Positions 1-19,024 of a stretch of DNA of 64,000 nucleotides are shown piece by piece (position 1 is the first letter of the stretch; each line of letters begins with the position of its first letter). Both the position numbers and the translations under genes were made by a program. Under the pieces are notes generated by a model. That model did no database searches, was not told the origin of the DNA, and saw only the letters and a program-made list of their open reading frames with translations. The stretch comes from Oceanipulchritudo coccoides (GTDB lineage: Bacteria; Verrucomicrobiota; Verrucomicrobiia; Opitutales; Oceanipulchritudinaceae): assembly GCF_010500615.1 (NCBI RefSeq), contig NZ_JAAGNX010000001.1, forward strand, positions 1,131,531 to 1,195,530. The letters run 5' to 3'.

Positions 1-1
1 G

Positions 2-995: not shown

Positions 996-3900
996 TTAAT
1001 TCCGGGCGGTTTCTTCCTCCTGCGAATCAATGCCCCCCTTTTTGCGGGCAAATGCGGATGGCGAGCATTTGTATTCATCCTTGAATACACGGCTGAAATA
1101 ACCGGCATCGGAAAAGCCCACATCGTACGCAATTTCGGAGACGGGCTTGCCTCCCTCGGCAAGCCAGAGGGCGGCCCGGCGGAGCCGCTTTGTACGGATA
1201 AAGGCGGCCGGGCTCAGGTCGGTCAGGTTGCTGAACTTGCGATAGAAGGCACTACGGCTGAAGCCCATTTTTTCAGCGAGGGTATTCACGTCGAACTGCT
1301 CTTCCGACATGTGCTCCTCGACCAGTGTCTCGGTCTTTTCCACGAAGACCTTATCCTCTCCGGAAAGGCCTGCGAGGCGGTGATCATCGACAAACTGTTC
1401 GCGGACCCGTTCGCGAGAGCGCTTTTGTGTGGAAAGGAGATTCCGGATCTTCAGGCGGAGGATCTCCGGCGAGACAGGCTTTGTAATGAAATCGTCAGCA
1501 CCGCTATTGAAGGCCTTGAGCCTGTGTTCTTCCGAGCGGAGGGCAGTCAACAGAATGACCGGAATGTGGGAGGTGTGGGGATCCTTCTTGAGAACACGAC
1601 AGGTTTCAAAGCCGTCCTTCCCGGGCATGACAATGTCCGAGATAACAATATCGGGAATGAGTTCCTGTGCCTTGGCAAACCCTTCGTCACCGTTGGTCGC
1701 CATTTCGATTTGGAAGGCCCCTCTCAATTCTCCGCCAATAAATTCGCGCAGGTCGTGGTTGTCCTCAATGAGCAGGATGACACTTTGATCCTGTTCTGCA
1801 GTCACAGCAGGGGCGACGTGGTCCGACGATGAGACAGGTTGGGTGTTCAGGGCGTCTTGCGTTTTCTTCCTGCCGGGGAGCGGGAAGCTGATCTGGAAGC
1901 AGCTACCCGGGCGCTCCTTGTCATGCGGATTGACAGGACTGATCACGCTAACCGTACCATGGATGGCCGTCACGATCTCCTTGACGAAGGCCAGGCCGAT
2001 ACCAGAGCCCTCTTCAGTTTCATCCATGTCGGCACTCCGGTAAAACGGTTCGAAGATGGCCTCCTGCTCGGAAGTGGAAATCCCCGGTCCGTCATCTTCC
2101 ACTTCAATTTGTCCCATGGGCGGCCCGTCCGGCGTTTCCACTTCGGCCACGCGCACCGTTATGCGCCCGCCGCGTGGGGTGTACTTGACCGAATTGTTGA
2201 CCACGTTGTCGATGATCTTGTGGAACAATTCCTGATCGAAGGCAAAGACCAGTCCGGTCAAGTTAGTTTCCAGCTTCAGGGTGTGTTTCTTTTCAAGGGC
2301 CCAACCATCAAACACTGCAAGGCAGCTCCTGATGAACGGAACGAAGTCGCCCTCCTGCGGCTTGAACTCCAGTCTGTTGAGTTGGAACTTACGGAAGTCC
2401 AATAACTGATTGATGAGGAAAAGGAGGCGCTGGCTATTTGATTTGATAAGGGAGAGAAAGTGCTGGTGCCGGCTGTCGCTGATCTCGTTCTGAAGTCGCT
2501 CCACCGGCCCGAGAATCAGGCTCAAGGGGGTTTTTATTTCATGGGAAAGGTGGGTGAACACCCGCATTTTCACCTGCTCGATTTCAAGCATGTGCTTGAC
2601 GCGTTGACGGATGAAGAAAACAACCACCGAGATAAGGAAAAGAATACCGGCCACCAGGGAAGCAACGAACCAGGCCTGTTGCCAGAGCGGAAGGACAACG
2701 GTGAACTCCGCCCGCAATGGAGTCGGATCAACGTTGAAGTCGCTGTCGCGGGATACGACTTCAATTACATGTTTGCCCCCTTTTAACTCATTGAGGGTCA
2801 CTTCCGTGGATGCTGTGAACGGGGACCAATCCCCTCCATCCACACGATGAGAGAATTGCAGTTTGTTGGCTGGAGTTCTCGACCACGCATCCACACCCTT
2901 CCAGCTGAATTGGAGGCTGGTATTCCGTTGAAGTTCGGAAGGGGGTGTGATCCACAATGTATCAGGCGCCTGGTTGTCGGGGACATACTGTACTGTCCGG
3001 AATCCCCTTTTCTTGTCTTCCGCGTAGGGCTCCGTGCGTTGTCCGCGATAATACCAGTCGACATGGGTACGGTTAATCCAGATGGAACCATCCTTCCCTT
3101 GAACCACCCGGCCGGATCCGCGATGCAGCCCTTCCACAATTCCCATGAATGGGGCCCAGAGTTGTCCATCAAAGCGAAAGTGTCCTTCACGAGTCGTTGC
3201 AACCGGGTCTGTCCCATTCAGGGTTATGACAAAAGAGGTGAGGGAGCTTTCCAGCCCATCCGCTTCCGTGAATTGTTTCCACTCTCCATTGCTGAACCGG
3301 TAGATTCCCTGGGACCAGACCGCACACCAGAGGTCCCCGGCTGCATCGACGGCAATCTGGTCAATCCACTTTTGCCGAAGCTCGTCTGGAAGTTCCACAG
3401 GTGCTGCGCCGGATCGGGTATTTTGAAAAATTCCATTTTCGCTGCTGTAGACGCTTTCCCCATTTCCCCTGACAAGGCTCCAATTGCGGAATTGAAAAGG
3501 AGGGGACTGCAAGTGCTTGGAAACATAGGTTCCATCTTTCTGCCGGCTGATAACGACAATTCCGCCTTGGTAGTCGGGAAACTCTTCTTCCATCTGGGCA
3601 CATCCCAGCCAGATATCGCCGTTGGGCTGTTTCAGGGCCGCCAAATGGGCAAATGACAGGGCGACCTCGGGAAAGCGATAAACTTCCCATTTCTGGCCAT
3701 TGTAGACTGATATGACCGCTTCGCGCTGATCAGAACCGGCGAGAATCCAATCTCCGCTTGGGTGGACCAACAGCGTCCCTGGATGGGAAACGCCGGTTTC
3801 ATCGGATGTATGAAAGATGCCATTCCGGGATTCCTGTGACAGCTGTACGACATCATTGTTTATGGAAATGAAGAGCTGGTCTCCTTCCAAGGTTTGATCC

Positions 3901-4976
3901 TGGAAATGCAGGCCATTGAAGGAGTATCCGCTAGTCTGACCATAATCGATCCGGACGTTCATGCCGCCTTCCTCGATTATGCTGACTGCACCGCTGGTAT
4001 CCTGAACCATTGTCGAACGGGCACCCGGAAGCGGATATTCCGGACTGTGATACACTTTCCATTCTTCGTTTTTAAGGATGTGCAGGGAACCCCGGCTTGA
4101 AATCCAGATGGCCCCGTCAGGTGTCTCCAAAATCGAGAAGTCAAAGTTGTCCCCCCCAATACGGGAAAGGTTTACCGACTCCCATTCCCCTGTTTCGGGG
4201 TCATAGAAGCTGGCCGGCAAGTTGTGGTGATTATTGATCTGCCATATCCGGCCATCGCTGGCGCGCATCAGACTGGCGGCGAGAATCTCGTGCTGCATTC
4301 CCGGTTTCTTGAGAATCCAATCTCCCACGGGGGCAAGATTGCCTTCAACGAGCGGGCATTCCCAGACTTCGCCCCGGGGCAGGGTGGATATCCACAGGCT
4401 TTGCTTGTTGGGTCCTTCACAAACACTCATCACTGCGCTACGCCAAGGGGTGATCTCACACTCTGCTGTGGCTGGATCAAGCCGTGCCAACCCGCTTCTG
4501 AGGCCAATCCACAGGATTCCATCAGAGGTTTCGGCAATGTTATCCCGCACCCGGCGGTGAAGCCCTTCGTCCGCCACCTTTATCCAGGCTGATCCATCAA
4601 AGAGGTAAATTGCCCCGGTTGTCACCACGCAGTAATGGGCCCGGGAACTGATGAAAAAAGCACTGATGAACTGATCTTCAATATCTTCAGGGAGCGCTTC
4701 TTGTTGCCAAGTGCGTCCATCATAGAAGTGCAATTCGTTGGGACTGTAAATGGCCCCAAGTCTCCCGTCCGGGGTCATCGCGACAATTTCAAGCGCTTGC
4801 CCATCAAGGCCTTTGATTCGCTGCCAGCGCCAGGATTCCGTCAACGGATCCACGCGGTAGCTGTCGAGGCTGCGCACTTCGGTCCCGTTGAGCGGGCTCA
4901 TGACAAAGCAACCAATAATTAAGGTGAGTTTCCGCCAGAGGGGGGTTGAGAATAGGGGCGAATTCGGGAAATTCAT
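996..4976 (-). CDS. Hybrid two-component system regulator (sensor kinase, receiver and AraC domain in one chain)
   Basis: This 1326-residue inner-membrane protein combines all steps of a two-component system. Residues ~30-660 are a periplasmic sensor of beta-propeller (Reg_prop-type) repeats, with recurring D/NG-x-I/LW motifs such as DGILWIG, DGRIWQ, DGAIWIS and NGDIWLG. A Y_Y_Y-type beta-sandwich follows at ~685-760 and one membrane helix at ~765-789. The cytoplasmic part has a HisKA domain (phospho-His ~812 in HLSHEIKTPL), an ATPase with N-box and DDGPGIS/GSGIGLAF motifs, a receiver (phospho-Asp ~1114, Lys ~1166) and a C-terminal AraC-type double HTH (~1224-1319). I chose the ATG at 4976 because a signal-like hydrophobic stretch follows it; a TTG at 5024 would add 16 residues. 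In this family the regulator usually binds an oligosaccharide and activates the adjacent saccharide locus. Confidence 0.93.
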   Translation of the reverse strand: MNFPNSPLFSTPLWRKLTLIIGCFVMSPLNGTEVRSLDSYRVDPLTESWRWQRIKGLDGQALEIVAMTPDGRLGAIYSPNELHFYDGRTWQQEALPEDIEDQFISAFFISSRAHYCVVTTGAIYLFDGSAWIKVADEGLHRRVRDNIAETSDGILWIGLRSGLARLDPATAECEITPWRSAVMSVCEGPNKQSLWISTLPRGEVWECPLVEGNLAPVGDWILKKPGMQHEILAASLMRASDGRIWQINNHHNLPASFYDPETGEWESVNLSRIGGDNFDFSILETPDGAIWISSRGSLHILKNEEWKVYHSPEYPLPGARSTMVQDTSGAVSIIEEGGMNVRIDYGQTSGYSFNGLHFQDQTLEGDQLFISINNDVVQLSQESRNGIFHTSDETGVSHPGTLLVHPSGDWILAGSDQREAVISVYNGQKWEVYRFPEVALSFAHLAALKQPNGDIWLGCAQMEEEFPDYQGGIVVISRQKDGTYVSKHLQSPPFQFRNWSLVRGNGESVYSSENGIFQNTRSGAAPVELPDELRQKWIDQIAVDAAGDLWCAVWSQGIYRFSNGEWKQFTEADGLESSLTSFVITLNGTDPVATTREGHFRFDGQLWAPFMGIVEGLHRGSGRVVQGKDGSIWINRTHVDWYYRGQRTEPYAEDKKRGFRTVQYVPDNQAPDTLWITPPSELQRNTSLQFSWKGVDAWSRTPANKLQFSHRVDGGDWSPFTASTEVTLNELKGGKHVIEVVSRDSDFNVDPTPLRAEFTVVLPLWQQAWFVASLVAGILFLISVVVFFIRQRVKHMLEIEQVKMRVFTHLSHEIKTPLSLILGPVERLQNEISDSRHQHFLSLIKSNSQRLLFLINQLLDFRKFQLNRLEFKPQEGDFVPFIRSCLAVFDGWALEKKHTLKLETNLTGLVFAFDQELFHKIIDNVVNNSVKYTPRGGRITVRVAEVETPDGPPMGQIEVEDDGPGISTSEQEAIFEPFYRSADMDETEEGSGIGLAFVKEIVTAIHGTVSVISPVNPHDKERPGSCFQISFPLPGRKKTQDALNTQPVSSSDHVAPAVTAEQDQSVILLIEDNHDLREFIGGELRGAFQIEMATNGDEGFAKAQELIPDIVISDIVMPGKDGFETCRVLKKDPHTSHIPVILLTALRSEEHRLKAFNSGADDFITKPVSPEILRLKIRNLLSTQKRSRERVREQFVDDHRLAGLSGEDKVFVEKTETLVEEHMSEEQFDVNTLAEKMGFSRSAFYRKFSNLTDLSPAAFIRTKRLRRAALWLAEGGKPVSEIAYDVGFSDAGYFSRVFKDEYKCSPSAFARKKGGIDSQEEETARN

Positions 4977-5099
4977 GGGGTGATAGGGGAGTCGTAAGAC
5001 TGAATCAGCTAAGTTTTTGGTCAATTCAAATTCAGTCTCGTTCCGCTCACAATGCAGTCACGGGTTTGCGGACTGCAAAACAGGTAAAATGCTCCCTGT

Positions 5100-5161
5100 G
5101 GGACAAAATTCCAAGGGGTTAGGTACAAAATTACAGCCCGTTTTTCGAATTGATCTGATAA
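5100..5161 (+). promoter_or_regulatory. Candidate operator and activator-dependent promoter of the modular-protein operon
   Basis: GGGACAA at 5100-5106 and GTACAAAATT at 5123-5132 are separated by 16 bases. The same two half-sites with the same spacing occur at 14311-14343. A -10-like TGATAA lies at 5156-5161 with no good -35, as expected for an activator-dependent promoter. The pitch between half-sites is about two helical turns, as expected for an AraC-type dimer, so the adjacent hybrid regulator is the likely binder. The binding itself is inference. Confidence 0.5.
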
Positions 5162-5264
5162 AATTCAGCTATCTGCAATGGATTTAGTCCTTGCACCCCT
5201 CATCGGCTTCAGCCGGTGACAGTTATCTCAACCCCATCGTCTAAAACCTCATTCACAAAATCCC

Positions 5265-6833
5265 ATGACCTTGAATTCAAACTCACTCCTTCGCGGTCGC
5301 CTGACCTTGGCGGCCCTTTCCGTCCTTGCCGTTTCGATTCCCCTTCAAGCCAAGGTTGTCAGCCTGAACTTTGCTGAAAGTGTCGCTGATAACGATGCAC
5401 AAAATATTGATATTGATGAAACCTATGGAGTAGGTGACCTATTCGGTATTCAGACAACCGTTGGCAACTGGAGCAACACCGGCGCCAATAGCCTCACCAG
5501 CCTCCAGGACAAGGACGGGGCAGCGACCGCTGTCAATTACACCGGTACGCAGCCGGCCGGCAAAGGCGCTTTTGGAGCCCCTTATGCCGACACTCCTCTC
5601 AACAGGGGATTTGTCGTCTACACAGGCACTGCCAACCCGGTCACCACCGCCTTCTCCGGCCTCAACACCACCTTCCCCACCGGCTACTACGCGGTGGTCT
5701 ATCTGACAGGGTTCATAGGCAACACTGGCGCCTCGATCACCAACGGAACAGATACCTATTACTACCAGACCCCCAATCCTGCTTCGCTCCCGGATCCTCT
5801 TGTCCAGACGACCCAGACCACGGACTTGGGAGACGGTCTCAACCCCGAGGCACAATATGCGGTCTTTGGCAGTTCCGGCTCACCCTTGACCGCGGACGCC
5901 ATCACCTTCACGATTGATGCGTTATACGGTGGCGGGGCTGGCGTGGGCGGTGTTCAATTGGTTGGCGTCAATGGAAATGTTGTCAGCCTCAACATCGTGT
6001 TAAACACACCAAATGCTCAAACCGTCATCGGGGACTTTGGCCTCGGTACGATATTCGGGGTTGATACAACGGTCGCCAACTGGACCAATAGCAACGCGTC
6101 CAGCAGGACAGACCTCAAGGACAGCGATGGCGTGGCCACAACCATTGATTACAGCGGGACCCAACCAAACGACAAGGCTACCTTTAACCCCGCCTATGAT
6201 TTTACGCCACTGAAGGCGGGGTACGATGTATATTCAGCGGGTAGCGCCGTGTTGACAGCGACCTTCACGGATGTGGCGGAGAATTTCCCCAACGGCTACT
6301 ACGCCATTGTCTACCTGACTGGTTACAACTCAAACGACGGAGCCGCGATCACGGTTGGATTTGACGACATCGCTATCGACAGCACTTTAGTCAACGGTAG
6401 CAACGAGTTCGTGATCGACTTCACTGCAACACCATCAAGCGATTACGAAGTGAAGAAATCAACTGTCCTGAGTGGTTTCAGCTCCCTTGCCTCCCAGCTC
6501 ATCGTGACCACCGATGGAAGCGGGGTAGGGCAGGCCACCGTCCCGTCCAGTGAGTTGTCGGATCCGAAACAATTCTTCAATCTTGAGGACTCCACGGACA
6601 TCTTCTATTACCGGAATATTGCCTCCCCGGTTGCTCCGGTCACTTTTGTCCAGACATCCCAGGCGACGGACCTCGGCGCTGACCTCAATCCGGAGGCGCA
6701 ATACGCGATCTTTGGTAGCGACACTTCACCGTTGTTCGCCGATTCCATCACCTTCACCTTAACGGCCCTCTATGGAGGAGGAGCCGGTCTTGGCGGAGTA
6801 CAGTTGGTTGGGCTGCCGGATCCTGGGCCTTAA
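5265..6833 (+). CDS. Secreted protein with two copies of an unrecognised ~200-residue domain
   Basis: The protein has 522 residues with a clear signal peptide (cleavage near IPLQA-KVV). After it come two copies of one domain, at ~29-238 and ~241-520. Each starts V(V)SLN(F/I)..., contains VGNW/VANW, then a GYYA(V/I)VYLTG motif, and ends with the near-identical sequences NPEAQYA(V/I)FGS and LYGGGAG(V/L)GGVQLVG. The same domain forms the N-terminal part of the next two genes. I do not recognise it as a named family; it has the look of a beta-rich binding module. The second copy carries a 77-residue in-frame insertion (residues ~366-442). The gene is first in a four-gene run, downstream of the candidate operator. 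There is no Shine-Dalgarno before the ATG. A role in binding an extracellular polysaccharide is inference from context. Confidence 0.7.
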   Translation: MTLNSNSLLRGRLTLAALSVLAVSIPLQAKVVSLNFAESVADNDAQNIDIDETYGVGDLFGIQTTVGNWSNTGANSLTSLQDKDGAATAVNYTGTQPAGKGAFGAPYADTPLNRGFVVYTGTANPVTTAFSGLNTTFPTGYYAVVYLTGFIGNTGASITNGTDTYYYQTPNPASLPDPLVQTTQTTDLGDGLNPEAQYAVFGSSGSPLTADAITFTIDALYGGGAGVGGVQLVGVNGNVVSLNIVLNTPNAQTVIGDFGLGTIFGVDTTVANWTNSNASSRTDLKDSDGVATTIDYSGTQPNDKATFNPAYDFTPLKAGYDVYSAGSAVLTATFTDVAENFPNGYYAIVYLTGYNSNDGAAITVGFDDIAIDSTLVNGSNEFVIDFTATPSSDYEVKKSTVLSGFSSLASQLIVTTDGSGVGQATVPSSELSDPKQFFNLEDSTDIFYYRNIASPVAPVTFVQTSQATDLGADLNPEAQYAIFGSDTSPLFADSITFTLTALYGGGAGLGGVQLVGLPDPGP

Positions 6834-6875
6834 GACTTTATTCTCTTTAAATTCCACCTTAGTTATTAATCAGGA

Positions 6876-6899
6876 CCGGGATGGCATCCGCCATCCCGG
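6876..6899 (+). terminator. Strong intergenic hairpin (partial terminator or mRNA-processing hairpin)
   Basis: A perfect 10-bp stem (CCGGGATGGC / GCCATCCCGG) with a 4-base loop lies between the first and second modular genes. Only a mixed CTTCCTT tract follows, so full termination is doubtful. It could reduce downstream expression or stabilise the upstream message. Confidence 0.55.
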
Positions 6900-6941
6900 C
6901 TTCCTTACAAACCAAAGCCCTCCAAATCATTACCACGAAAC

Positions 6942-7982
6942 ATGAAAACAAAACATTCAATCCTAAGTCTATCATCCATCTGTCTTCTGTTCATGATCGG
7001 CCAGGTCCTGCAGGCCCAGATCATCAGTGTGAACATCTCCTTCAATAATACCGGCAACACGGCCATTGACGGGGAAGAGACCTTCGGCGTGGCTGCCCTC
7101 GATACGGTAGTCGGTGGCTGGAACAACATTGGTTGGACCTTTGAAAACCTGCTCCTGTCTGACGGGACTGAATCGCCGGTCAACCTTGAAGTTGGGTTTT
7201 TCAACGACCGCAACTACTTCGGCCCAGGGTACATCAATACACCCCTGAATTACGGGGCGCCGCATTACGCTGCGACCAATGATGACCCGGGAACCAACCT
7301 CACTTTCAATAACCTCCGGGATGTTTTCCCTGAGGGGTATTATATCATCGCATATGTTTCCGGGTTTGCCGCCAATCCCGGGGAGGGGTTTGTCACGGAC
7401 GGGCGGACCAGCTATTACTTCACCCCGCCCACCGACAACAAGACTGTCCTGACACCGGAGAACATCCTCCGGACCACGGTGACTCAAGATCCGGGATCAG
7501 GAAATTTCCCTGAGGCCCATTATGCCGTCTTCGGGAGCAAGGAAGCGCCGATCTTCTTTCCCTTCATCACAATTCGCGTCGACACGGTTGATGGCGGCGC
7601 GGTCTCCATTTGCGGCGTGCAAATCGTCTCGGCCAGCGACGTCGTCGTCAAGACCGACTGGGCCGGCTACACAATTGATCCTGACGGCTATGTCGACACA
7701 GGCGATGCCTTCATGGGATTGCTGAACTACGGGACTGATCCGGCCGGCATGATGGGCTGGCTCTACTCAGTGGATGTTGGCGAGTGGCTCTATATCCCGG
7801 AAGCCGAGGTGGTTCCTGGAACTGGTGGCTGGGCCTACATGAATGACCCATCTGAGCTCCAGCTCACTGATTGGGGACAGGGCTGGTACTTCTCGTACGC
7901 CCTGAACACATGGGTGTTTGCTCCTGGCGAAACTCTCGCTTCAAGTCCGGCATGGGTTTATGCCGTGGACATGAGCATGTAA
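6942..7982 (+). CDS. Secreted two-module protein (shared N-terminal domain plus Trp/Tyr-rich C-terminal domain)
   Basis: The protein has 346 residues with a signal peptide (cleavage near LQA-QII). Residues ~26-232 are one copy of the domain that is duplicated in the previous gene, recognisable by ISVNISFN, VVGGWNN, GYYIIAYVSGF and EAHYAVFGS. Residues ~237-346 are a Trp/Tyr-rich module with DPDGYVDTG, WLYSVDVGEWLYIPE and W(V)FAPG...AWVYAVDM. This C-terminal module returns in the next gene, where a beta-helix domain separates the two. Here nothing lies between them, so the protein looks like a binding or anchoring companion without a catalytic domain. The function is unknown. The start ATG has no Shine-Dalgarno sequence. 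Confidence 0.7.
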   Translation: MKTKHSILSLSSICLLFMIGQVLQAQIISVNISFNNTGNTAIDGEETFGVAALDTVVGGWNNIGWTFENLLLSDGTESPVNLEVGFFNDRNYFGPGYINTPLNYGAPHYAATNDDPGTNLTFNNLRDVFPEGYYIIAYVSGFAANPGEGFVTDGRTSYYFTPPTDNKTVLTPENILRTTVTQDPGSGNFPEAHYAVFGSKEAPIFFPFITIRVDTVDGGAVSICGVQIVSASDVVVKTDWAGYTIDPDGYVDTGDAFMGLLNYGTDPAGMMGWLYSVDVGEWLYIPEAEVVPGTGGWAYMNDPSELQLTDWGQGWYFSYALNTWVFAPGETLASSPAWVYAVDMSM

Positions 7983-8018
7983 GCGGGAACCCGCGTCATC
8001 AAATAGATCGGTTATTCC

Positions 8019-10745
8019 ATGTCAAAGTTCCCCCTTTCGCCGCACGTCCGGCTGGTCGTGCTCATTGCCTGTACTCTCCTGAATCCCTGTTTTGCGCGGA
8101 TTGTCAGTATAAACTTTGCCATTGAAGGTACCGGTAATACGGCCATTGACGGTGAGGAAAGTTTCGGTGTTCCTGCTCTTGAAACAGTTGTCGGGAACTG
8201 GAACAATCTGGATAGCTCCTTCGGTCTGAAGCGGGATAATGGCCAGAGCAGTACCGTTGGGTTGACCCTTGATTCCTCGAGCGGGTTCAATTACTTCGGG
8301 GCCAGCTACATCAACACTCCCCTGAACTACGGACTGCAGTACTATGCGGCCACACCCGAGAATCCTTCTGTCATCCTTAATAACCTGCAGCAGGAGTTTC
8401 CTGAAGGGTATTATGTGATTGTCTACCTAAGCGGTTTCAAAAGCAACACAAGCGCCTCGGTCTCCAACGGCGCAACAACCTACTATTATCAAACAGCGGA
8501 TCCACTACCGGTTGATTTTGGCCCGGAGAGTATGGTTCTGGCCACCCTCACCAGCGAACCGGCAGCCGGGCAGGCGCCCGTCGCCAACTACGCTCTTTTT
8601 GGCAGCCCTGAAAACCCACTCACTGCGGACACGGCAAGCTTTTCAATGAAGCAGCTCAGTGGCGGTGGAGCAGGTCTGGGCGGGTTCCAGATTGTTTCTG
8701 TCGGTGATGTGGGAGGCGGAGGGCCCAATGAGGCGACTTGGACCAATCCTGCGGAGGGCGATTACTTCCTTGATGCGGAAGACGGGAACGATCTCAACGA
8801 CGGTACTTCACCTGAAACGGCATGGCGGACTCTCGGAAAGCTGAACACGGTCGACTTCGGACCGGGTGATGTGATTCTCTTCAAGGCGGGAAGCGTCTTT
8901 ACGGGCAGTTTTTTCCTCATTGGGGATGGCACTCCAGAGGAACCCATTGTCCTTGGGGCTTATGGAACGGGTCCCAAGCCGCGACTGGAGGGTGGGCCAA
9001 ACGATTCCGAAGTCATTTTCCTCACGGGCAACAGCGGGGTTGAATTTCGCGATCTGGAAATTTCAAACTACCATCCAACCGGCTCAATTGCGAACCGCTT
9101 TGGCATCCGTCTCGTTGCCCCGGCAAGGACCGGTGAGATGAAGCACCTGCACTTCCATGGGCTTGATTTCACATGGATCAAGGGGAGTGGCGACGAGCAT
9201 GAGTCGCGGGCAATTGATGCCGATACAACCAGCGACGATTTGGCCAAACCGTATACGCGTTGGAACGGATTCATCGTTGAGGACTGCTTCTTTTCGAACA
9301 TTGACGGACGGGCGGTCCAGCTCAACGACCGTAGCGGAAGCCTCTCTGATTTTAAACTTCGCGGCCTTGAGTATTATCCGACGATTGGATTTCTCTTTCA
9401 AAACAACACCGGTATCAACATCCACCGCAATCTCTTGCAACTGGGCGGGACCAAGGACGCTTTGATCCAGCACAACTACATGAGCGGAACAATTGAGGGT
9501 AGTGCCTTCTGGCCCTTCGATGCCGAGGGAACGGTTGTCCAGTTCAACGACTTCCGCCATCTCCGGAATCCTTTGGCAGACAGCTACATATGTCACTTTG
9601 ACTATAATTGTATCGATTCTCTCATGCAGTATAACTTTGGATACGATGTCGATGGTGGCCTGATTGAGATTATTGTCTTTTCCCAGTATAATTTTTTCCA
9701 GGAGAATGCCGTGGCTCGATATAATATCGGTATTGATGTCGGCTTCCGGAACAAGGAGAACGGTGCCGGGATCATGTTCTCCGGGCGGGTCACAGGCTCG
9801 AAGGTCTATAACAACACCATCGTCAACACAGATCTGCATTCCAACTACAAGGCCATCGCGGTCAACAACTGGGGTGGGGAATGGCCGAACAACAACACCG
9901 TGCAGAATAATATTTTCTACGCGGCGGGGAATCCTGTCACTTTTGACGACATGTCCTACCTTGAAGAGCGCGGCAATGTCCTGAGCCATAACCTGTACTT
10001 CGGGAACATCACCGTTCCCCAAGAGGACCTCGCCCCGCTAAATGTCGACCCGCTGATGTCCAATCCCGGTGGCTTGGATCCCGCTGATGTGAAGCTCCTT
10101 CCCAACTCACCAGCCATTGCTGCCGGGACAGTCATCGCTGCCAACGGGGGGCGTGACTTTTATGACAATCCAATCGCGGCGGACCTTGTTCCCACGATAG
10201 GTGCCCACGAATTCCAGACGGAGGGCCAGGGCCGCTTTGCCGGTTACAAGATCGGTGAGGAAGGATACATCAATACCGGGATGCGCTTCATGGGATTGCT
10301 TTGGGTCGGACCTCAATCCGTGGACGCTAACTGGATCTACAGCGTGGCCGCAAACCAATGGCTGTACATGCCGGAAGATTTTGTTTTGCCGGGTGCGGGC
10401 GCATGGTTCTTTTCCTCCAACACGGCAGCCTTCGAACCACGTGACGTCCGGGGACAGTGGTTCTATTCACAAGTCCTCGACACCTGGGTTTTTAGCTTCA
10501 GCGAAACTGCTGGCACCGGCCCTGCGTGGATCTATGCCTTGGATACAGGCTTCCAGCAGACTTTCCTGGCGCAGGCCTTTGTCGATGAGAATCGCCGTCG
10601 CCGCGAAATGAAGGCGCGTGGAGAAGTATTTTACGGGCCGGTTCAGTTCCGTCGGGAAGTGTGGATGCAGATCATGCTCAGTCAGGCCAAACGCAAGTCG
10701 CAGTTGTCATTTCCCGGAACAATAGCTTTACCTGACCCCTCTTAA
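8019..10745 (+). CDS. Secreted right-handed beta-helix protein with N-terminal shared domain and C-terminal Trp/Tyr module
   Basis: The protein has 908 residues with a signal peptide (cleavage near CFA-RIV). Residues ~28-230 are the shared SINF-type domain (VSINFAIEG, VVGNWNN, GYYVIVYLSGF). Residues ~245-735 form a right-handed parallel beta-helix that opens with DYFLDAEDGNDLNDGTSPE, the usual entry of secreted beta-helix enzymes. It contains the motif FDYNCIDSLMQYN and a conserved NNWGGEWP. Residues ~740-850 are the Trp/Tyr-rich module of the previous gene (NWIYSVAANQWLYMPE), and a charged tail of ~55 residues follows. Beta-helix proteins in saccharide loci are often lyases or glycosidases, but no catalytic motif is certain here. 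It is co-directional with, and only 36 bp from, the previous gene. Confidence 0.75.
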   Translation: MSKFPLSPHVRLVVLIACTLLNPCFARIVSINFAIEGTGNTAIDGEESFGVPALETVVGNWNNLDSSFGLKRDNGQSSTVGLTLDSSSGFNYFGASYINTPLNYGLQYYAATPENPSVILNNLQQEFPEGYYVIVYLSGFKSNTSASVSNGATTYYYQTADPLPVDFGPESMVLATLTSEPAAGQAPVANYALFGSPENPLTADTASFSMKQLSGGGAGLGGFQIVSVGDVGGGGPNEATWTNPAEGDYFLDAEDGNDLNDGTSPETAWRTLGKLNTVDFGPGDVILFKAGSVFTGSFFLIGDGTPEEPIVLGAYGTGPKPRLEGGPNDSEVIFLTGNSGVEFRDLEISNYHPTGSIANRFGIRLVAPARTGEMKHLHFHGLDFTWIKGSGDEHESRAIDADTTSDDLAKPYTRWNGFIVEDCFFSNIDGRAVQLNDRSGSLSDFKLRGLEYYPTIGFLFQNNTGINIHRNLLQLGGTKDALIQHNYMSGTIEGSAFWPFDAEGTVVQFNDFRHLRNPLADSYICHFDYNCIDSLMQYNFGYDVDGGLIEIIVFSQYNFFQENAVARYNIGIDVGFRNKENGAGIMFSGRVTGSKVYNNTIVNTDLHSNYKAIAVNNWGGEWPNNNTVQNNIFYAAGNPVTFDDMSYLEERGNVLSHNLYFGNITVPQEDLAPLNVDPLMSNPGGLDPADVKLLPNSPAIAAGTVIAANGGRDFYDNPIAADLVPTIGAHEFQTEGQGRFAGYKIGEEGYINTGMRFMGLLWVGPQSVDANWIYSVAANQWLYMPEDFVLPGAGAWFFSSNTAAFEPRDVRGQWFYSQVLDTWVFSFSETAGTGPAWIYALDTGFQQTFLAQAFVDENRRRREMKARGEVFYGPVQFRREVWMQIMLSQAKRKSQLSFPGTIALPDPS

Positions 10746-10763
10746 CCTCCCCACGATTTACCC

Positions 10764-13652
10764 ATGATTACCTCCCTCAATCTTCAACGCCCGTTGTCTT
10801 TCCTTGGCCTCGTGCTTTTCATGCAACTGACTCCGCTTTCAGCAGCCACTTACTACCTTGATGCAGATGGCGGCAATGATCTGAACCTTGGGACCTCACC
10901 CGCTCAGGCGTGGGCCACCTTGGACGAGGTCAACAGCAGGACCTTCCTGCCCGGTGACCAGATACTTCTTCAGGCTGGGGACACCTTTAATGGGAAAATC
11001 TATCTTGACGGGGACAGTGGTTCTGCGGGCAACCCGATCATCATTGCTTCCTACGACAGTGGACCCGCACCGGTCATCAACGCCTCGGGATACTTGGCCG
11101 GTGTTCATCTCGAGGATACCGCGCATGTCGAGGTGCGTGACCTGGAAATCACAGGCGACGGGGGTGCCATGGTCGATGGCTCACCAGAGGATGATCGCTA
11201 CGGGGTTTTCATGAGCCGTACGGGTACCAACGGCGTTCAGGAGATCCTAATAGACAATCTCTACATCCACCACATCTACCCCAGTATCGGGACTCCAAAC
11301 GAGGGGGCCACCCCAACAACGTACACCGGATTTGGCATTGCCATAAGCGGTGGTGACGCATCCGTTTCCGGAAATATCGTTGTCAGCAACTGCGCCATTG
11401 AAAATGTTGGTCACAAGGCAATCCAGATGCGGGATATCCGGTTTGTCGAAATTCTCGACAATGTCATGACCGATATTGGAGGACCGGCCATTCAGCCCAG
11501 TCGGGTCGACGATCTGGTTGTGCGCGGCAATGTCGTGGATGGCTCAGGCGTGTTTATTGATTCGCGCATGCATGGCCGCGGGAGCGGCATCTGGCCGTTC
11601 GCCAGCGACCGGGTACTGATTGAGAAGAACACCTTCAAGGGAGCGCGCGGTCGGGCGGATTCATGCGGGATGCACATCGACTTCAATTGCAACGACGTTG
11701 TTGTGCAGTACAACCTCAGCATCGACAACGCTGGAGGCTTCATCGAGATCCTTGGCAACAACAACAATTGTTCCTACCGCTACAATATCAGCATTAATGA
11801 TGGCTGGCGGGTGAAGGGCGCTCTCGACCAAGGCACAATTGCCAATCATCAGGACGGTAATATTATCTGGACGAGCGGCTATGTCGGTTCGGGGAATCCC
11901 CTGAACGGCCCGTTTAACAGCTACCTCTACAACAACACGATTTACGTGGATGGTTCCATTACGGGGAAGTTTAATATCAATGATTCCACCGACGGATTAC
12001 TGATAGCCAACAACATCTTTTATGTCCTCGGACCAACAGCTGATGTCACGGGAGATAACGCGGACGACTATACGCAGGCAATGGCTGATCGCGTTGTCTG
12101 GATGAACAACCTTTACCAGCGGACGAACATCGTCCCCACTTTCAATCTCGACTTGTTCACTGAGACAGCTCCCTTAATCGGGAATCCTTTGTTTGCCAAT
12201 ACCGGCGGACTTACCGCCGCTGACTACATTCCCTCATCAACCTCCCTCGTCGAGGATCAGGGGATCCTCATCACGCCAATCACAGGTGATCCCGTCGGCC
12301 TGGCAATTGGTCTTGATGTAGCCACTGATTATTTTGGAAATCCCGTGGTCGGCTTACCCGACATGGGGGCAATCGAGATTGGGGGCACACCGTTTCCTCT
12401 CCCGCCGGCGGCTTTTGACAGTGTCCCGACGGCACTGGATTCATATTCTGTCCAGATGACCTCCATTGAGGGTCCGTTCAACACGGAATACTATTTCACC
12501 GAGACAAGTGGCAACTTGGGCGGAGATGATTCCGGCTGGCAGTCCTCACCTGTTTACACGGATACCGGCCTCCTGCCCAATACCGCTTATGCCTACACTG
12601 TCACGATGCGGGATGCCCTCGATGTGGCCGGCACAGCAAGCGCTGTGGGATTTGTCCTGACCCTGGAGAGTAGTCCGTATGGGGAATCCCCTGTTGTCCT
12701 GTCGGAAGATTTCTCGACCAATCCCAACCCGGCAAATACCGCTGCCCCTTATCCCTCGGAAACCTGGCACCAGTCGGATATGTCGAACTGGAGAAGCGAA
12801 GACAACGGCCAGACCTTGTCCGTCAATTCATCCAACGGCGGTTTGCGCACGGGATTCGGGTATGACGAGATTGTCACGCGTTGGTTTTCTACCCGCACAT
12901 GGGACACATCAAAGGACTATCGCTTTAGCGGGGACTGGGAAATTGCAGCGGTCCTTGATGTGCATGTCGGCCTGATTGTCGGGATAGGGGAGTTTGATCC
13001 TGTATCAGGTGACTTGATACAGCGTATCAAGGAAGTCACTATCGGTGATCTAACTTCTCCTGCCGCAGGCCAGACAGGATCGTTCATCCTCGACCTGTCC
13101 TCAGCTGAGCTTGTCTCAGCCGGGGTTAGCGAGACCAGCCTGGTCGGTGTATTCTTCCATCACGACGATGATGGAACGCTCTTCAATGAGGGGCCTTCGC
13201 TTCGGAATGATGTCTACGTGGTGGATGACTTGTTACTTGTCGTGCTAGGCGTTCTTGAAGATTTAGACGGCGACGGGATTGCCGATGTGGACGAACCGGG
13301 CCTTGGCCTCAACCCCGGGAATACCGGCGATGGCGCTGAAGATCTGGATGGAGACGGTAGAAGCAATTTTTCAGAATACCTGACCGGTAACATCCTGAAT
13401 GATGGCAGTGATTTCTTTTCGCCGGATTTTTCCATCAATGCGGGAGTCCCCGAATTGCGTATTCCGGGATCAAATGTTTTGGACGGGCGGCTATACATTC
13501 TTGAGCACGCCACGAATCTTGGGGCTTCGAACCCCTGGACCGCGGTTGATGCTGTCCTTGGATCCAGCGCTAACCCGGGAACGGATATTGTTTTTCAGCA
13601 CCCCCTTGTCGGGAATCGTTCATTCTTCCGGGTGCGCGTCCAATGGGAGTGA
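10764..13652 (+). CDS. Secreted multidomain right-handed beta-helix protein with Ca-binding and C-terminal sorting-like module
   Basis: The protein has 962 residues with a signal peptide (cleavage near LSA-ATY). The beta-helix domain (~28-545) begins YYLDADGGNDLNLGTSP and carries IDFNCNDVVVQYN...DNAGGF, the signature of its two paralogues. It is followed by a fibronectin-III-like segment (~550-635) and a jelly-roll-like region (~645-830). A Ca-binding repeat stretch with two DxDGDG motifs (DLDGDGIADVDE and DLDGDGRSNFSEY) comes next, then a C-terminal beta module ending FFRVRVQWE, similar to terminal modules common in verrucomicrobial secreted proteins. It starts 18 bp after the previous gene, so it is probably in the same operon. 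Its 3' end overlaps the convergent gene by 33 bp. The substrate and the chemistry are not visible; polysaccharide processing is inferred. Confidence 0.75.
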   Translation: MITSLNLQRPLSFLGLVLFMQLTPLSAATYYLDADGGNDLNLGTSPAQAWATLDEVNSRTFLPGDQILLQAGDTFNGKIYLDGDSGSAGNPIIIASYDSGPAPVINASGYLAGVHLEDTAHVEVRDLEITGDGGAMVDGSPEDDRYGVFMSRTGTNGVQEILIDNLYIHHIYPSIGTPNEGATPTTYTGFGIAISGGDASVSGNIVVSNCAIENVGHKAIQMRDIRFVEILDNVMTDIGGPAIQPSRVDDLVVRGNVVDGSGVFIDSRMHGRGSGIWPFASDRVLIEKNTFKGARGRADSCGMHIDFNCNDVVVQYNLSIDNAGGFIEILGNNNNCSYRYNISINDGWRVKGALDQGTIANHQDGNIIWTSGYVGSGNPLNGPFNSYLYNNTIYVDGSITGKFNINDSTDGLLIANNIFYVLGPTADVTGDNADDYTQAMADRVVWMNNLYQRTNIVPTFNLDLFTETAPLIGNPLFANTGGLTAADYIPSSTSLVEDQGILITPITGDPVGLAIGLDVATDYFGNPVVGLPDMGAIEIGGTPFPLPPAAFDSVPTALDSYSVQMTSIEGPFNTEYYFTETSGNLGGDDSGWQSSPVYTDTGLLPNTAYAYTVTMRDALDVAGTASAVGFVLTLESSPYGESPVVLSEDFSTNPNPANTAAPYPSETWHQSDMSNWRSEDNGQTLSVNSSNGGLRTGFGYDEIVTRWFSTRTWDTSKDYRFSGDWEIAAVLDVHVGLIVGIGEFDPVSGDLIQRIKEVTIGDLTSPAAGQTGSFILDLSSAELVSAGVSETSLVGVFFHHDDDGTLFNEGPSLRNDVYVVDDLLLVVLGVLEDLDGDGIADVDEPGLGLNPGNTGDGAEDLDGDGRSNFSEYLTGNILNDGSDFFSPDFSINAGVPELRIPGSNVLDGRLYILEHATNLGASNPWTAVDAVLGSSANPGTDIVFQHPLVGNRSFFRVRVQWE

Positions 13653-14240
13653 ATTTTCATCACCTTCTAATCCTATCCAATCCACAACCAGGGAAAATGG
13701 GCCGGGATTCCCATCAGCCAGCAAGAAGGCGATTTGCCGGATGGAGGAGAGATCCAGGGGTGGACCATTAAGAAAATTGCCCCGGAAGCTGGGAACAAAT
13801 GAGGAAAACGGGATTGATATTTCTGTCCACTCATCTGCCTCAGTTGGAAAAGTGGCACGGTAGGCAATTCGGGAACCGCGGAAACGGGCATCTGTTGCGA
13901 TACGGAATTGAAAGTCGCGCCCGTCCCCTTTGACGCGAAGCCGTACACCTGTGTACTTGGTCAGGTCGGACTGCTCAATTCGTGAGTAAATCTGTGCAAA
14001 TCCCCCATTGTTTTCGAGGGAAAGCTCACCGGAAAATTGGAGATGCCCCTCTTTGATTTCGCCCCAGCCACTCGAGACGCCTCCCATGACACCATCATTC
14101 TGGGCGAACCATGCGGGTTCCCCGGATGGCTTGTCAAAATCACGAAGGATTTTCATGGGTGAGCTGGAAGCGGCATTCATGGACAGGCAAAGGAAGGAAG
14201 TGCTGATGGTGATAGCTTGGATGAGGGACTTGTATAACAT
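13620..14240 (-). CDS. CIA30-family (complex I intermediate-associated protein 30 fold) secreted protein
   Basis: The protein has 206 residues from the ATG at 14240, chosen because a signal peptide (SLIQAITISTSFLCLSMNA) follows directly; the open frame runs 33 codons further up without a good start. The mature part has the CIA30/galactose-binding-like pattern: NDGVMGGVS, GFAQIYSR, GVRLRVKGDGR, WTEISIPFSSF and IRQIAFLLAD. Bacterial CIA30 proteins are widespread and mostly uncharacterised. It is divergent from the beta-helix gene at 14406 and shares its upstream region, including the candidate operator, so co-regulation is possible. Its 3' end overlaps the end of the preceding convergent gene. 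Confidence 0.75.
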   Translation of the reverse strand: MLYKSLIQAITISTSFLCLSMNAASSSPMKILRDFDKPSGEPAWFAQNDGVMGGVSSGWGEIKEGHLQFSGELSLENNGGFAQIYSRIEQSDLTKYTGVRLRVKGDGRDFQFRIATDARFRGSRIAYRATFPTEADEWTEISIPFSSFVPSFRGNFLNGPPLDLSSIRQIAFLLADGNPGPFSLVVDWIGLEGDENSLPLDAHPEE

Positions 14241-14310
14241 TGTATAAATTGGCACATCCGGTGAGCTGACGCAAACGCTAGCGAGTTTTCCCGACCTCCT
14301 CGGTGGAAAA

Positions 14311-14374
14311 GGGACAAGTCGCCATACATTTTGGTACAAAATTCAGAAGACAATCGCTTGCGGGGTGGTATAAT
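14311..14374 (+). promoter_or_regulatory. Second copy of the candidate operator plus TATAAT box
   Basis: GGGACAA at 14311-14317 and GTACAAAATT at 14334-14343 are separated by 16 bases, matching the site at 5100-5132 in both halves and spacing. A consensus TATAAT lies at 14369-14374, 35 bases from the start of the second half-site (33 for TGATAA at the other promoter), with no good -35. If this -10 is used, transcription begins near 14381. Confidence 0.55.
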
Positions 14375-14405: not shown

Positions 14406-15971
14406 GTGAACATCAAGAATTTGAAAACATTTCTGCAAGTAACCATGGGTTTCCTGTTTCTGGCGGGTCCCTTAGACGCGGGGAAAGATGCCGTATCCAC
14501 GGTTTGTTCCAGCCTTTCAGTGGCGGGCCAATCCTACTATATTGATTCCCGGAAAGGCAGCGATGCCAACAGCGGCACCGCTCCGCATGAAGCATGGGCG
14601 ACACTCTCCAAGGTCAACTCAATGGGGTTTCAACCAGGTGACCGTATTCTATTTCGCTCCGGATCGGAATGGAATGGACGTCTCGTCCCGAAAGGCAGCG
14701 GAACGGCGGAAGAGCCAATTGTCATCGACCGCTATGGTGAGGGGAAACTGCCCGCAATTCATGGGCTGGGTAAGTGGGAGTCTGCTGTCCTGCTGGAAAA
14801 TATCGAGTACTGGGAAGTCAGGAACCTGGAAATTACCAACAAGGGACCAAGGCGCAAACCAGGCCGTCGGGGTCTGGTCGTCAGGGCTTTGAATATGGGG
14901 GATTGCCGGGGGATTCACCTGAAGGGACTGGTTATCCGCGATGTGAACGGCAGCTTGGTCAAAAGAGACGGCGCGGGCAGCGCTATCCTCATCCACAATG
15001 GGGGAAAGCAGGTGCCGACCCGTTTCATTGATCTACTGATCGAGGATTGCCACCTGTATCGCTGCGAACGCAACGGGATCAATTTTCGCGGGAACTCCCG
15101 CAGGAGCGAATGGCATCCGAGTTTGAAGGTGGTTATCCGCAATAACCTCCTTGAACAAATTCCCGGAGACGGGATTGTGCCGATCGGATGTGATGGAGCC
15201 TTGGTGGAGTATAATGTCATGCGGGATTGCCCCGATACACTCCCGTTTGGGGATGCCGCTGCGGGCATCTGGCCATGGAGCTCGGACAACACCCTCATCC
15301 AGTTCAACGAGGTCAGTGATCACAACGCGAAGTGGGACGGACAGGGATTTGATGCCGACTACAATTGTATCGGAACGGTCATTCAGTACAACTACTCCCA
15401 CGATAATGCGGGTGGATTCCTGCTCATCTGCAACAAGGGTGATAGCCTTGGTGGGGATATCAACGTCGGTACGGAGGATACGGTGGTCCGGTACAACCTG
15501 AGCATCAATGATGGTATTCGTGAATATCCGACCAAGCGCCAGGGCTGGTTTTCACCGGCCATCCATATCTCGGGACCCTGCAAAAATACCCGCATCCACA
15601 ACAATTTGATCATCATTCCGGAAAAGCGCATGCCTGAGATTGATTCCACAGTTGTTCATTTCCATAACTGGGGCGGGTCATGGCCGGTGGATACGCACTT
15701 CGAAAAGAACATCTTCATCTCCCCAAATTCACGCGGGTTCCAATCGGGCGGGGATAAGCGCACGGTGTATTCGCAAAATTGCTACATTGGGAATTTTGAC
15801 TCGTTGCCTGACGATCCCACGGGTGTTCTGGACGCCTCCTCAGCACCCGGGGAAACGGCATGGGGAGATGACTTTCAGGTGTTGAAAGCGTTTCTCCAGA
15901 CGAAGCAGTTGCCGAAATTGGATGAATCCATCCCAGTCCCGCCACTCTTCAGGGAGCTGTTCGGGGAATAG
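14406..15971 (+). CDS. Secreted right-handed beta-helix protein
   Basis: The protein has ~521 residues and belongs to the same beta-helix family as the genes at 8019 and 10764. It opens SYYIDSRKGSDANSGTAP, has a GDRILFRSGSEW...G motif, GIWPWSSDNTLIQFN, DADYNCIGTVIQYN...DNAGGF and HNWGGSWP. It is a single domain without the accessory modules of its paralogues. The start is uncertain: the frame extends to a TTG at 14331 with ATGs at 14373, 14376 and 14445. I use the GTG at 14406 because it gives a clean signal peptide (NIKNLKTFLQVTMGFLFLAG) and lies downstream of the predicted transcription start. It is probably part of the same saccharide regulon, given the shared operator. A lyase or glycosidase role is inference. 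Confidence 0.75.
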   Translation: MNIKNLKTFLQVTMGFLFLAGPLDAGKDAVSTVCSSLSVAGQSYYIDSRKGSDANSGTAPHEAWATLSKVNSMGFQPGDRILFRSGSEWNGRLVPKGSGTAEEPIVIDRYGEGKLPAIHGLGKWESAVLLENIEYWEVRNLEITNKGPRRKPGRRGLVVRALNMGDCRGIHLKGLVIRDVNGSLVKRDGAGSAILIHNGGKQVPTRFIDLLIEDCHLYRCERNGINFRGNSRRSEWHPSLKVVIRNNLLEQIPGDGIVPIGCDGALVEYNVMRDCPDTLPFGDAAAGIWPWSSDNTLIQFNEVSDHNAKWDGQGFDADYNCIGTVIQYNYSHDNAGGFLLICNKGDSLGGDINVGTEDTVVRYNLSINDGIREYPTKRQGWFSPAIHISGPCKNTRIHNNLIIIPEKRMPEIDSTVVHFHNWGGSWPVDTHFEKNIFISPNSRGFQSGGDKRTVYSQNCYIGNFDSLPDDPTGVLDASSAPGETAWGDDFQVLKAFLQTKQLPKLDESIPVPPLFRELFGE

Positions 15972-16047: not shown

Positions 16048-17487
16048 TCAAGAGGCTTGCTGTGCCGCAGCGGCTTTCATGCGGTTCTGCTTCTTCATGA
16101 CAAGGAACATGGAAATGCCGCCGATTACACCGAATCCAGCCATGATGGCATACCAGAATGTCCAGCCGTATTGATCCTTGGTGGCATCCAAGACGCGACC
16201 AGTTATGATCAGCGAAAGAGCACCACCGTAATACTGGAAGGAGTCAATCACGCCCGCTGCAAACCCCGCCATTTTCTTGCCGCCGATATCCATGGGGGCC
16301 GCCGCACCGACAATCGAGTGGGTCGAGTTCGCGGTCAGGGCGATCAGGATTAGAATGACACAGCCTGCGATGATTCCGCCGGTTGTTGGTCCAACCAGGC
16401 CCTTCAGGAGAATTATGGCTGCCGCACCGATGACAACAGCTTCCAGGAAATACAGGAACATGGCCACAGGGGAGCGGAATCCCTTGAAGAATTTATCGGA
16501 AACCCAGCCCGAGGCCAATGACCCGAACACGGCCATGATCGGCATCAGGGCGAGTGTTGCCACGACAATTAGCGGCACATTTGTTTTCATGTCCATACCA
16601 AGCTGTTCCTGGAAGTACAGGACAGCCAGATGGTCGGAGCTTGATCGAACCGCACCAGTACAGGCGTAGGCGACTGCATAGAACCAGACGAGCGGGTGAG
16701 TAAAAATAGTTTTAAAGGATTCTGCGAGCGATGTCGTTGTACCTGCTGAATTATCGATTTCATCTTCAATGACGCCGGGATAGCCCGCTTCCTCCGGGGA
16801 TTGCTTGGCGACAAGGGACATGAAGATGACCGCACACGCTGTGAAAATCGGCGGAAGGAGAAAGAGGGCGCGCCAGTTGCCTTCGGCAAAAACAATGAAT
16901 CCCAGCGAGACACCATTTAAAATGGCCGGACCCAGCTTTGAAATAGAGACCTGCCCCAGCTGGATCATGAATCCAAAAATCCCGGCAAATGTTCCGCGTT
17001 CAGTCCGGTGGAACCAGGCTGCATTGACTTTGACCATGCCAGGTGCACCGAATGACTGGAACCATCCGTTGAGCAACCAGATCAGCGAGATGGCAAGGAA
17101 GGCAGGATCCAAGCCGCTAAACAGTCCGATTTTTAAGAGGACGTTGCCAATACCGGTAATGGAGGCCAGTCCAAATGTGAGGCTGATGAGGATGGTTCCA
17201 ACCGCGCCGATTTGCATCGATCGTTTGCCGCCGATACGATCGCACAGCAGGCCGTTGACCAGTTGGCCGGTACCATAAGTGAGCGACCAGATAGCCATGA
17301 GATCCGCAATCTGGGTAATTGAAAACCCGAATTCCTCCTGCATGCCCGGTGTGGCAAAGCGGAAATTGTAGCGACACATGTAATATGTCGCATACATGAG
17401 GCCGAGTGAAAACCAGTTTATCCCGCGTCTTGCACGGAAACCCTTGGGATGATGCGCTACAAATACATGTTTCTTTTCTGATGCCAT
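16048..17487 (-). CDS. MFS permease of the organophosphate:Pi antiporter (OPA) / sugar-acid type
   Basis: The protein has 479 residues with about 12 membrane helices. The N-terminal helix contains YYMCRYNF, close to the Y(L/M)CR(K/Y)NF motif of GlpT/UhpT-type carriers. The cytoplasmic loop between helices 2 and 3 has the MFS motif in the form GLLCDRIGGKRSM, and a large hydrophilic loop (~215-245) separates the halves. OPA members move phosphorylated sugars or glycerol-3-phosphate in exchange for phosphate; relatives in saccharide loci carry uronates or oligosaccharides. At the end of a polysaccharide locus, import of a processed sugar product across the inner membrane is the most likely role. 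The substrate is not determinable from sequence. Confidence 0.85.
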   Translation of the reverse strand: MASEKKHVFVAHHPKGFRARRGINWFSLGLMYATYYMCRYNFRFATPGMQEEFGFSITQIADLMAIWSLTYGTGQLVNGLLCDRIGGKRSMQIGAVGTILISLTFGLASITGIGNVLLKIGLFSGLDPAFLAISLIWLLNGWFQSFGAPGMVKVNAAWFHRTERGTFAGIFGFMIQLGQVSISKLGPAILNGVSLGFIVFAEGNWRALFLLPPIFTACAVIFMSLVAKQSPEEAGYPGVIEDEIDNSAGTTTSLAESFKTIFTHPLVWFYAVAYACTGAVRSSSDHLAVLYFQEQLGMDMKTNVPLIVVATLALMPIMAVFGSLASGWVSDKFFKGFRSPVAMFLYFLEAVVIGAAAIILLKGLVGPTTGGIIAGCVILILIALTANSTHSIVGAAAPMDIGGKKMAGFAAGVIDSFQYYGGALSLIITGRVLDATKDQYGWTFWYAIMAGFGVIGGISMFLVMKKQNRMKAAAAQQAS

Positions 17488-18959: not shown

Positions 18960-19024
18960 AACGTGAAATATTCCAAATAAATTTGAAAATTTCAAGTTTA
19001 AAAGGTCAATCCGCGTTCAAATGA

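Follow-up and report, generated by a model that had tools for sequence, protein, structure and literature searches.

A putative direct-repeat operator of a hybrid two-component regulator in the verrucomicrobium Oceanipulchritudo coccoides

Activator sites of the AraC class II type, such as araI, consist of direct-repeat half-sites two helical turns apart, the promoter-proximal one lying next to the -35 region. For the hybrid two-component system (HTCS) regulators of Bacteroides thetaiotaomicron, Ravcheev et al. (2013, PMC3878776) give motifs for 16 of 36 HTCSs, built as direct repeats whose spacing averages 21 base pairs (bp); they propose HTCS dimers two helix turns apart and call these regulators unique to the Bacteroidetes. 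A SHIP motif in the HTCS receiver has been linked (PMC11253607) to phosphorylation-dependent release of the DNA-binding domain. Among the literature matches listed, mostly from outside subscription journals, no HTCS operator in the Verrucomicrobiota was found. Here we describe a comparable element in Oceanipulchritudo coccoides, a member of this phylum, on a stretch of 64,000 nucleotides of contig NZ_JAAGNX010000001.1 (positions 1,131,531 to 1,195,530; hereafter the window). The element is a two-part motif, GGGACAA and GTACAAAATT separated by 16 bases, which occurs twice beside the gene of an HTCS (996-4976, minus strand) and very probably represents an activator operator of that regulator. 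Bare positions are those of the window, while positions in the complete genome (3.52 Mb, G000) are given as contig coordinates C1 or C2.

Copies of the motif in the genome

Both copies noted originally are exact. Operator 1 (5100-5132, plus strand, GGGACAAAATTCCAAGGGGTTAGGTACAAAATT) comprises the half-sites GGGACAAAATT at 5100-5110 and GGTACAAAATT at 5122-5132, and operator 2 (14311-14343, plus strand, GGGACAAGTCGCCATACATTTTGGTACAAAATT) comprises GGGACAAGTCG at 14311-14321 and again GGTACAAAATT at 14333-14343. When up to three mismatches were allowed, the window still yielded these two exact matches only; shuffled windows gave a mean of 0.10, and at least two matches were reached in 0 of 100 shuffles, in agreement with the expectation that such a pair is improbable in 64 kb. 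At the same setting the whole genome holds ten matches (five for the reversed control); besides the exact pair these are eight that each differ at exactly three positions, so that apart from 5100 and 14311 nothing comes closer than three mismatches to the original pattern. Six of the ten lie within predicted open reading frames (ORFs), a number comparable to the reversed-control count, and were set aside as background. The four outside ORFs are the two exact copies, C1:271594 and C2:809913, the last being a register-shifted match that adjoins a better site at C2:809891 and was not kept as a separate site. ORFs were called mechanically; for operator 2 and for the sites of two relatives discussed below (G015 and G372) the motif overlaps an upstream extension of the target frame, and the later start codon was taken.

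The motif reads better as one half-site, ideally about GRNACAAAATY, given twice in the same direction. The pitch of this direct repeat is 22 in the five sites of the genome described here and in that of G015, which corrects the value of about 23 bases proposed earlier. The two halves are identical at 10 of 11 bases at 5100 and at 6 of 11 at 14311, and agree at 6-10 of 11 across the five sites of the genome and that of G015; the operators at 5100 and 14311 share one additional base, a G at offset 22. When seven sites are aligned, G.GAC in the first half and G.AC in the second are invariant. Directly upstream of operator 1, at 5029-5091, there is a second 22-bp direct repeat (the ATTCAGTCTC / AATGCAGTCAC region) with TAAAAT downstream of it.

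Further sites were sought with a relaxed pattern, GRGACAA-N16-GNACAAWATY with at most one mismatch, which gave four matches in the genome and none for the control, the new one being C2:809891. From the site at C1:271594 (GAGACAAATTATGCAGGTGAAAGGCACAAAATC) it is 163 bases to the start of a beta-helix gene of 1171 codons whose product is, at its N-terminus, 43% identical to that of the protein encoded at 5265-6833; upstream of this gene are two sulfatases, an aldose epimerase and a TonB-receptor-like protein (Plug below cut-off). The site at C2:809891 precedes, by 98 bases, a gene whose product contains a TonB_C domain (1.1e-26); next come genes for a sulfatase (2e-63) and a sulfatase-modifying-factor protein (1.3e-42). 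A further step of 22 bp, GGGTGGATAATT, may follow the half-sites there at C2:809935 (L126:9935-9946), but could be due to chance. A fifth site, C1:1128824-1128856 (GGGACAATAACCCACCTAGACTGGGACGTTTTT), falls outside the window, 173 bases before the start of the TonB receptor gene next to the regulator; it has three mismatches to the search pattern and was found in a scan of the locus stretches that allowed up to three. The other three-mismatch matches of that scan were dropped (two in L011, one in the window, two in L127 and one, register-shifted, in L126). All three additional sites lie between predicted genes, each before a carbohydrate or uptake gene, and two of the five sites in the genome are distant from the HTCS gene. 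Sites had been anticipated upstream of the TonB receptor and of other saccharide genes, and both kinds are thus present, the receptor site in a degenerate form.

A refined pattern, GRGACAA-N15-GGNACRWWWTY with at most one mismatch, recovers exactly these five sites in the genome (control 0), rather than the many copies at unrelated genes or in coding regions that would have spoken against an operator. A chance origin is ruled out by the shuffles, by the genome-wide counts relative to the reversed control and by the empty control of this refined pattern. The sites were also ranked by leaving out each in turn and scoring it, with generic -10 weights, against 348,000 positions of the genome's own DNA from which the known sites were excluded; the G015 site was ranked against the same DNA. 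With operator and -10 scored together, five of the six left-out sites lie above every position outside the known sites, and no position apart from the other sites scores as high as operator 1.

Promoter register and conservation with the regulator

A box of the form TANNNT begins 58-60 bases after the operator start in all seven sites examined. It is TAAAAT at operator 1 (5159-5164, plus strand, offset 59), TATAAT at operator 2 (14369-14374, plus strand, offset 58), TAGGAT at C1:271594 and C2:809891 (offsets 60 and 59) and TATGAT at the receptor site (60); in the relatives it is TATAAT in G015 (60) and TAGAAT in G372 (58). Five of these sites (four from the genome itself and that of G015) had been found without use of the -10, and all five have the box at this distance, for which the chance measured at intergenic positions is 0.04 each and about 1e-7 for all five, a value somewhat overstated in that the 58-60 range was chosen after the sites had been seen. 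As the other sites have TANNNT at 58-60, TAAAAT is a better reading of the first promoter than the TGATAA (5156-5161) proposed earlier, whereas the TATAAT proposed for the second stands. The promoters had also been described as lacking a -35. The upstream sequence that fits TTGACA best, at a spacing of 15-19 bases from the -10, agrees at 2 of 6 bases at 5100, 4 at 14311 (AAGACA, spacing 16), 2 at C1:271594, 3 at C2:809891, 4 at the receptor site, 2 in G015 and 3 in G372, and 3900 of 20,000 random window positions attain at least 4 of 6. The description therefore applies at 5100, and at 14311 the -35 is poor rather than absent. With the proximal half-site reaching to offset 32 and a -35 expected at about 35-42, the operator is placed as would be suitable for activating promoters whose -35 is poor.

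The protein encoded at 996-4976 (its open frame could begin upstream at 5024) is the proposed operator-binding protein and combines in one chain a propeller-repeat sensor (Reg_prop, 9.8e-9), HisKA (2.8e-13), HATPase_c (1.2e-23), a receiver (Response_reg, 3.8e-22) and an AraC-type helix-turn-helix (HTH_18, 5.9e-22), all above the Pfam cut-offs, as is typical of HTCSs. Phospho-acceptor motifs are present for histidine (HLSHEIKTPL at 809) and aspartate (DIVISDIVMPGKDG at 1109), together with SDIVMPG and, in the receiver, SHIP. Its locus is also of the HTCS kind, with a TonB receptor (Plug just below cut-off) on one side and genes resembling glycoside hydrolase family 136 (GH136) on the other. Two stretches, FSRSAFYRKF and FSDAGYFSRVFKDE, would by our reading form the recognition helices of the AraC fold; they are unchanged in the HTCS of G015 and nearly so in that of G372 (FSDSGYFSRVFK), and differ in the other 14 HTCSs aligned, two of which come from the same genome. 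Of the 372 genomes of the window's order, 9, including that of O. coccoides, encode HTCS homologues at E <= 1e-200. From a scan of the named genomes with a three-HTCS alignment 17 loci were obtained; six of these (L070-L075) were scanned for the site and the three of Opitutales type (L070-L072) were followed.

Conservation is clear in G015, which belongs to another genus of the same family and encodes an HTCS orthologue with 57% identity. Its site (GGGACAAAATTCCACCCTCATATGCACAAAATC) lies between the orthologue and a gene of the domain family of the 5265 protein. At up to two mismatches G015 has three matches (control 0), the two besides this site falling within predicted ORFs, and both the relaxed pattern and the refined pattern give one match there, its known site (control 1 for the refined pattern). 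That the site is kept beside an orthologue with the same recognition-helix letters, and has an HTCS-like geometry, supports the neighbouring hybrid regulator as the candidate named in the original prediction. A weaker form is found in G372, an Opitutaceae metagenome-assembled genome (JAEUGY010000084.1, L072), whose HTCS is 46% identical and has among its neighbours a sulfatase and a GH136-like gene, and whose receptor is 38.7% identical to the receptor of O. coccoides. The site there (GGGACGTTTTTCACGGTACGTTGGGACAG, GGGAC-N17-GGGAC) stands 198 bases before the likely receptor start, shares the half-site GGGACGTTTTTC with the O. coccoides receptor site, and is the sole GGGAC-N17-GGGAC pair in 39.8 kb on both strands.

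Beyond these genomes the motif is at background. In 89 genomes (O. coccoides and 88 relatives) searched for GGGACAA-N16-GYACAAAATY with at most one mismatch, O. coccoides has three matches and G015 one; among the other 87, three have one match each, all overlapping predicted ORFs, and three have one control match. There was none in three congeners. With up to two mismatches, matches and controls numbered 3 and 2 in G106, 5 and 7 in G047, 2 and 2 in G090, 1 and 4 in G043, and 5 and 2 in G023 (16 versus 17 in total); context was inspected for the G106 matches. The lack of enrichment in G043, G047 and G090, whose homologues are 36-37% identical, is expected, because their recognition helices differ. 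The relaxed pattern had no match in G106 or G372 and one in G026, which was taken as chance, lying about 420 bases before a gene that by eye resembles that for ribosomal protein S1. In G372 the refined pattern matched once, within an ORF (control 0), and a search with up to three mismatches gave 29 matches versus 16 for the control, none of them in the contig carrying the HTCS (C66) and the one in L099 internal to an ORF. Among nine background matches in relatives whose context was examined, six were ORF-internal and three were not (L123, L058, L063). A loose repeat at 2323 of L071 in G106, with a pitch of about 21, was rejected, its TATGCT being out of register by some 4-6 bases in a hand count. 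At a strict setting, the two other HTCS loci of the O. coccoides genome have no strong comparable repeat, so that a rule for all HTCSs is not established.

Weighing the explanations and a proposed regulon

The repeats, their register with the -10, their placement and their conservation with the regulator are features of the sequence itself. Several points nevertheless weigh against reading them as an operator of this HTCS. G015 has one site only, despite having more of the related genes. In G372 the -10 formed part of the model by which the site was found; judged by its operator score only, the site is weak, another position in the same stretch scoring higher (10.3 versus 7.2). The two halves of this site agree at just 5 of 11 bases, and the pattern searches of the G372 genome missed it. 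No site was seen near the 48%-identical HTCS of G106, where the contig stops short of the DNA-binding domain and of the genes that would follow. In O. coccoides, the second half of the receptor site (GGGACGTTTTT) is degenerate, and the refined pattern was fitted after the sites had been seen. In the leave-one-out ranking C1:271594 is beaten once even with the -10 included, by the register-shifted C2:809913, and with the operator score only, there are, for each of C1:271594 and the receptor site, two positions that score at least as high. Finally, the 4 of 6 matches to TTGACA at acceptable spacing at 14311 and the receptor site mean that the absence of a -35 is not clean.

The motif could instead be a true operator of a different regulator, either another AraC-type protein or a global sugar regulator, with the HTCS merely its neighbour. 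The genome encodes seven AraC-type domains at E <= 1e-5, of which four lie outside the three HTCSs (one of these in a frame with a stop), and the two sites distant from the HTCS gene would be natural for such a regulator. We nevertheless regard this as unlikely: the next best AraC-type domain is 41% identical to that of the 996-4976 HTCS, a site adjoins the orthologous HTCS in G015 and a weaker form lies near that of G372, the pattern is at background in the 87 other genomes, and the 22-bp direct repeat resembles the HTCS motifs of B. thetaiotaomicron (PMC3878776). Much less probable is a remnant of joint duplication of promoter and gene, now devoid of function, which would account for the three of five sites that precede related beta-helix or same-domain genes; in the seven-site alignment, however, the spacers have diverged while the half-site cores and the -10 are retained, and the receptor, TonB_C and sulfatase genes come from other families. 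An alternative sigma factor that uses the repeats as elements of its core promoter, as the near-fixed distance to the -10 and the poor -35 matches might suggest, is scarcely credible: a -35 would be expected about 23 bases before the -10, whereas the second half-site begins too far away, 36-38 bases before it, and the first half-site would be left without a role.

We therefore return to the HTCS as the regulator and suggest how it could act. An oligosaccharide would meet the periplasmic sensor, the receiver would be phosphorylated and the DNA-binding domain released, and a dimer of AraC-type domains could then bind the two half-sites, which face the same side of the double helix at a distance of 22 bp. 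Only a few bases lie between the end of the downstream half-site and the place of the -35; because of this position, the TANNNT at 58-60 and the poor -35 (2-4 of 6), the HTCS would most likely serve as a class II-type activator that compensates for the -35. A partly scattered regulon would thereby be switched on, comprising, in the window, the two groups of beta-helix/GH136-like genes and, beside the regulator, the TonB receptor gene; the distant beta-helix gene would belong to it too, as would the distant run of genes whose products are a TonB-like protein, a sulfatase and a protein of the sulfatase-maturation type. Binding by the HTCS, its phosphorylation, activation and the ligand are what we infer from sequence here.

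The target genes and comparison with known systems

Operator 1 precedes a run of four plus-strand genes, the first of which (5265-6833, 522 amino acids) has its start codon 165 bases from the operator start and encodes, by eye, a signal-like N-terminus followed by two copies of an unnamed domain; the second copy is 46% and 62% identical over two stretches. The N-terminal domain recurs in the next protein (6942-7982, 346 amino acids), and neither of these two proteins matches Pfam or NCBIfam. The third gene (8019-10745, 908 amino acids) combines this domain with a GH136-like stretch (LnbX partial 8e-12, far below cut-off), and its product is 32% identical to the protein encoded at 14406-15971 over query residues 40-472. 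The fourth (10764-13652, 962 amino acids) encodes a GH136-like beta-helix protein (Pfam Beta_helix 2.3e-10; LnbX partial 2.5e-10, far below cut-off), 38% identical to the same protein. By eye, the products of 6942-7982 and 8019-10745 resemble each other in a segment near the C-terminus that is rich in tryptophan and tyrosine. The unnamed domain, of about 210 residues and N-terminal in several proposed targets, was aligned from seven copies (window 5340-5984, 7017-7637 and 8091-8738; L034:9850-10491; L070:6220-6843; L038:700-1416 and 1829-2470). Its structural model is beta-rich and of middling confidence (mean predicted local distance difference test score, pLDDT, 65.3), and gave 0 matches in the PDB at E <= 0.001.

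Operator 2 precedes the gene of a GH136-like (lacto-N-biosidase-like) beta-helix protein (14406-15971, plus strand; PDB 6kqs, E=8.7e-36), for which GTG at 14406 or ATG at 14445 is by eye the likelier start, not TTG at 14331, since 14331 lies inside the operator. Its DGQGFDAD aligns with DGQAWDAD of 5gqc and keeps the acidic pair; lacto-N-biosidases of the 6kqs type are assigned to GH136. Against the NCBIfam lacto-N-biosidase model LnbX, 91 bits are reached where the cut-off is 2500, and we therefore claim only a GH136-like relation. At the opposite side of the locus, the 3' end of the TonB-dependent receptor gene occupies 1-883 (plus strand; whole gene G000:C1:1128997-1132413), with Plug at 7.7e-5, just below the Pfam cut-off, and partial matches to TonB-siderophore receptor models. 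A transporter of the major facilitator superfamily (16048-17487) stands at the locus end, with partial matches, below cut-offs, to sugar-phosphate/organophosphate transporter models. Nearby, at 17826-18995, is a DUF4143/AAA_14 ATPase, and a similar-looking ATPase, judged by eye, adjoins the G015 HTCS (L037:5894-7042). Nine ORFs chosen from 19762-46112 included five housekeeping genes (RuvA, DapB, DapA, MetH-type, SecA) and two without a match; a locus end near 17.5 kb fits these data.

Verrucomicrobiota have been reported to consume sulfated polysaccharides (PMC8857213). Judging from the sulfatases and the maturation-type protein, the target of the regulon is probably a sulfated, galactose- or hexosamine-containing polymer. 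The wider proposition, that the two-turn HTCS operator code also exists in the Verrucomicrobiota, with unaltered spacing and an almost constant distance to the -10, and that one HTCS controls a scattered regulon including its own receptor, a TonB-like protein, a sulfatase and its partner, seems to us evenly balanced. Were it true, this code would not be a speciality of the Bacteroidota, HTCS regulons could be read from sequence across the Verrucomicrobiota, and a common spacing rule would allow sugar-responsive promoters to be predicted in uncultured relatives. A concrete candidate operator and a proposed five-site regulon are now available for a hybrid regulator of this phylum.

Compared with the described systems, the element shares with the B. 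thetaiotaomicron HTCS motifs (PMC3878776) a two-site direct repeat of about two turns before polysaccharide genes and near an AraC-type HTCS; the direct repeat about 21 bp apart that would be looked for upstream of HTCS targets is found with a pitch of 22. It differs from those motifs in its phylum, its half-site (about GRNACAAAATY), its pitch of 22 and the location of two of five sites far from the regulator. The transporter also differs, being a TonB receptor here, with no SusD match among the genes scanned with Pfam. As in the HTCS of PMC11253607, the receiver carries SHIP, and by analogy with that Bacteroides work a release of the DNA-binding domain could be expected in O. coccoides. Like araI, the element has direct-repeat half-sites two turns apart, and its proximal half-site would adjoin the presumed -35 region of promoters whose best -35 matches are 2-4 of 6, including the 4 of 6 at 14311 and the receptor site; unlike araI, it would be served by a hybrid kinase with a receiver rather than by a cytoplasmic sugar-binding protein.

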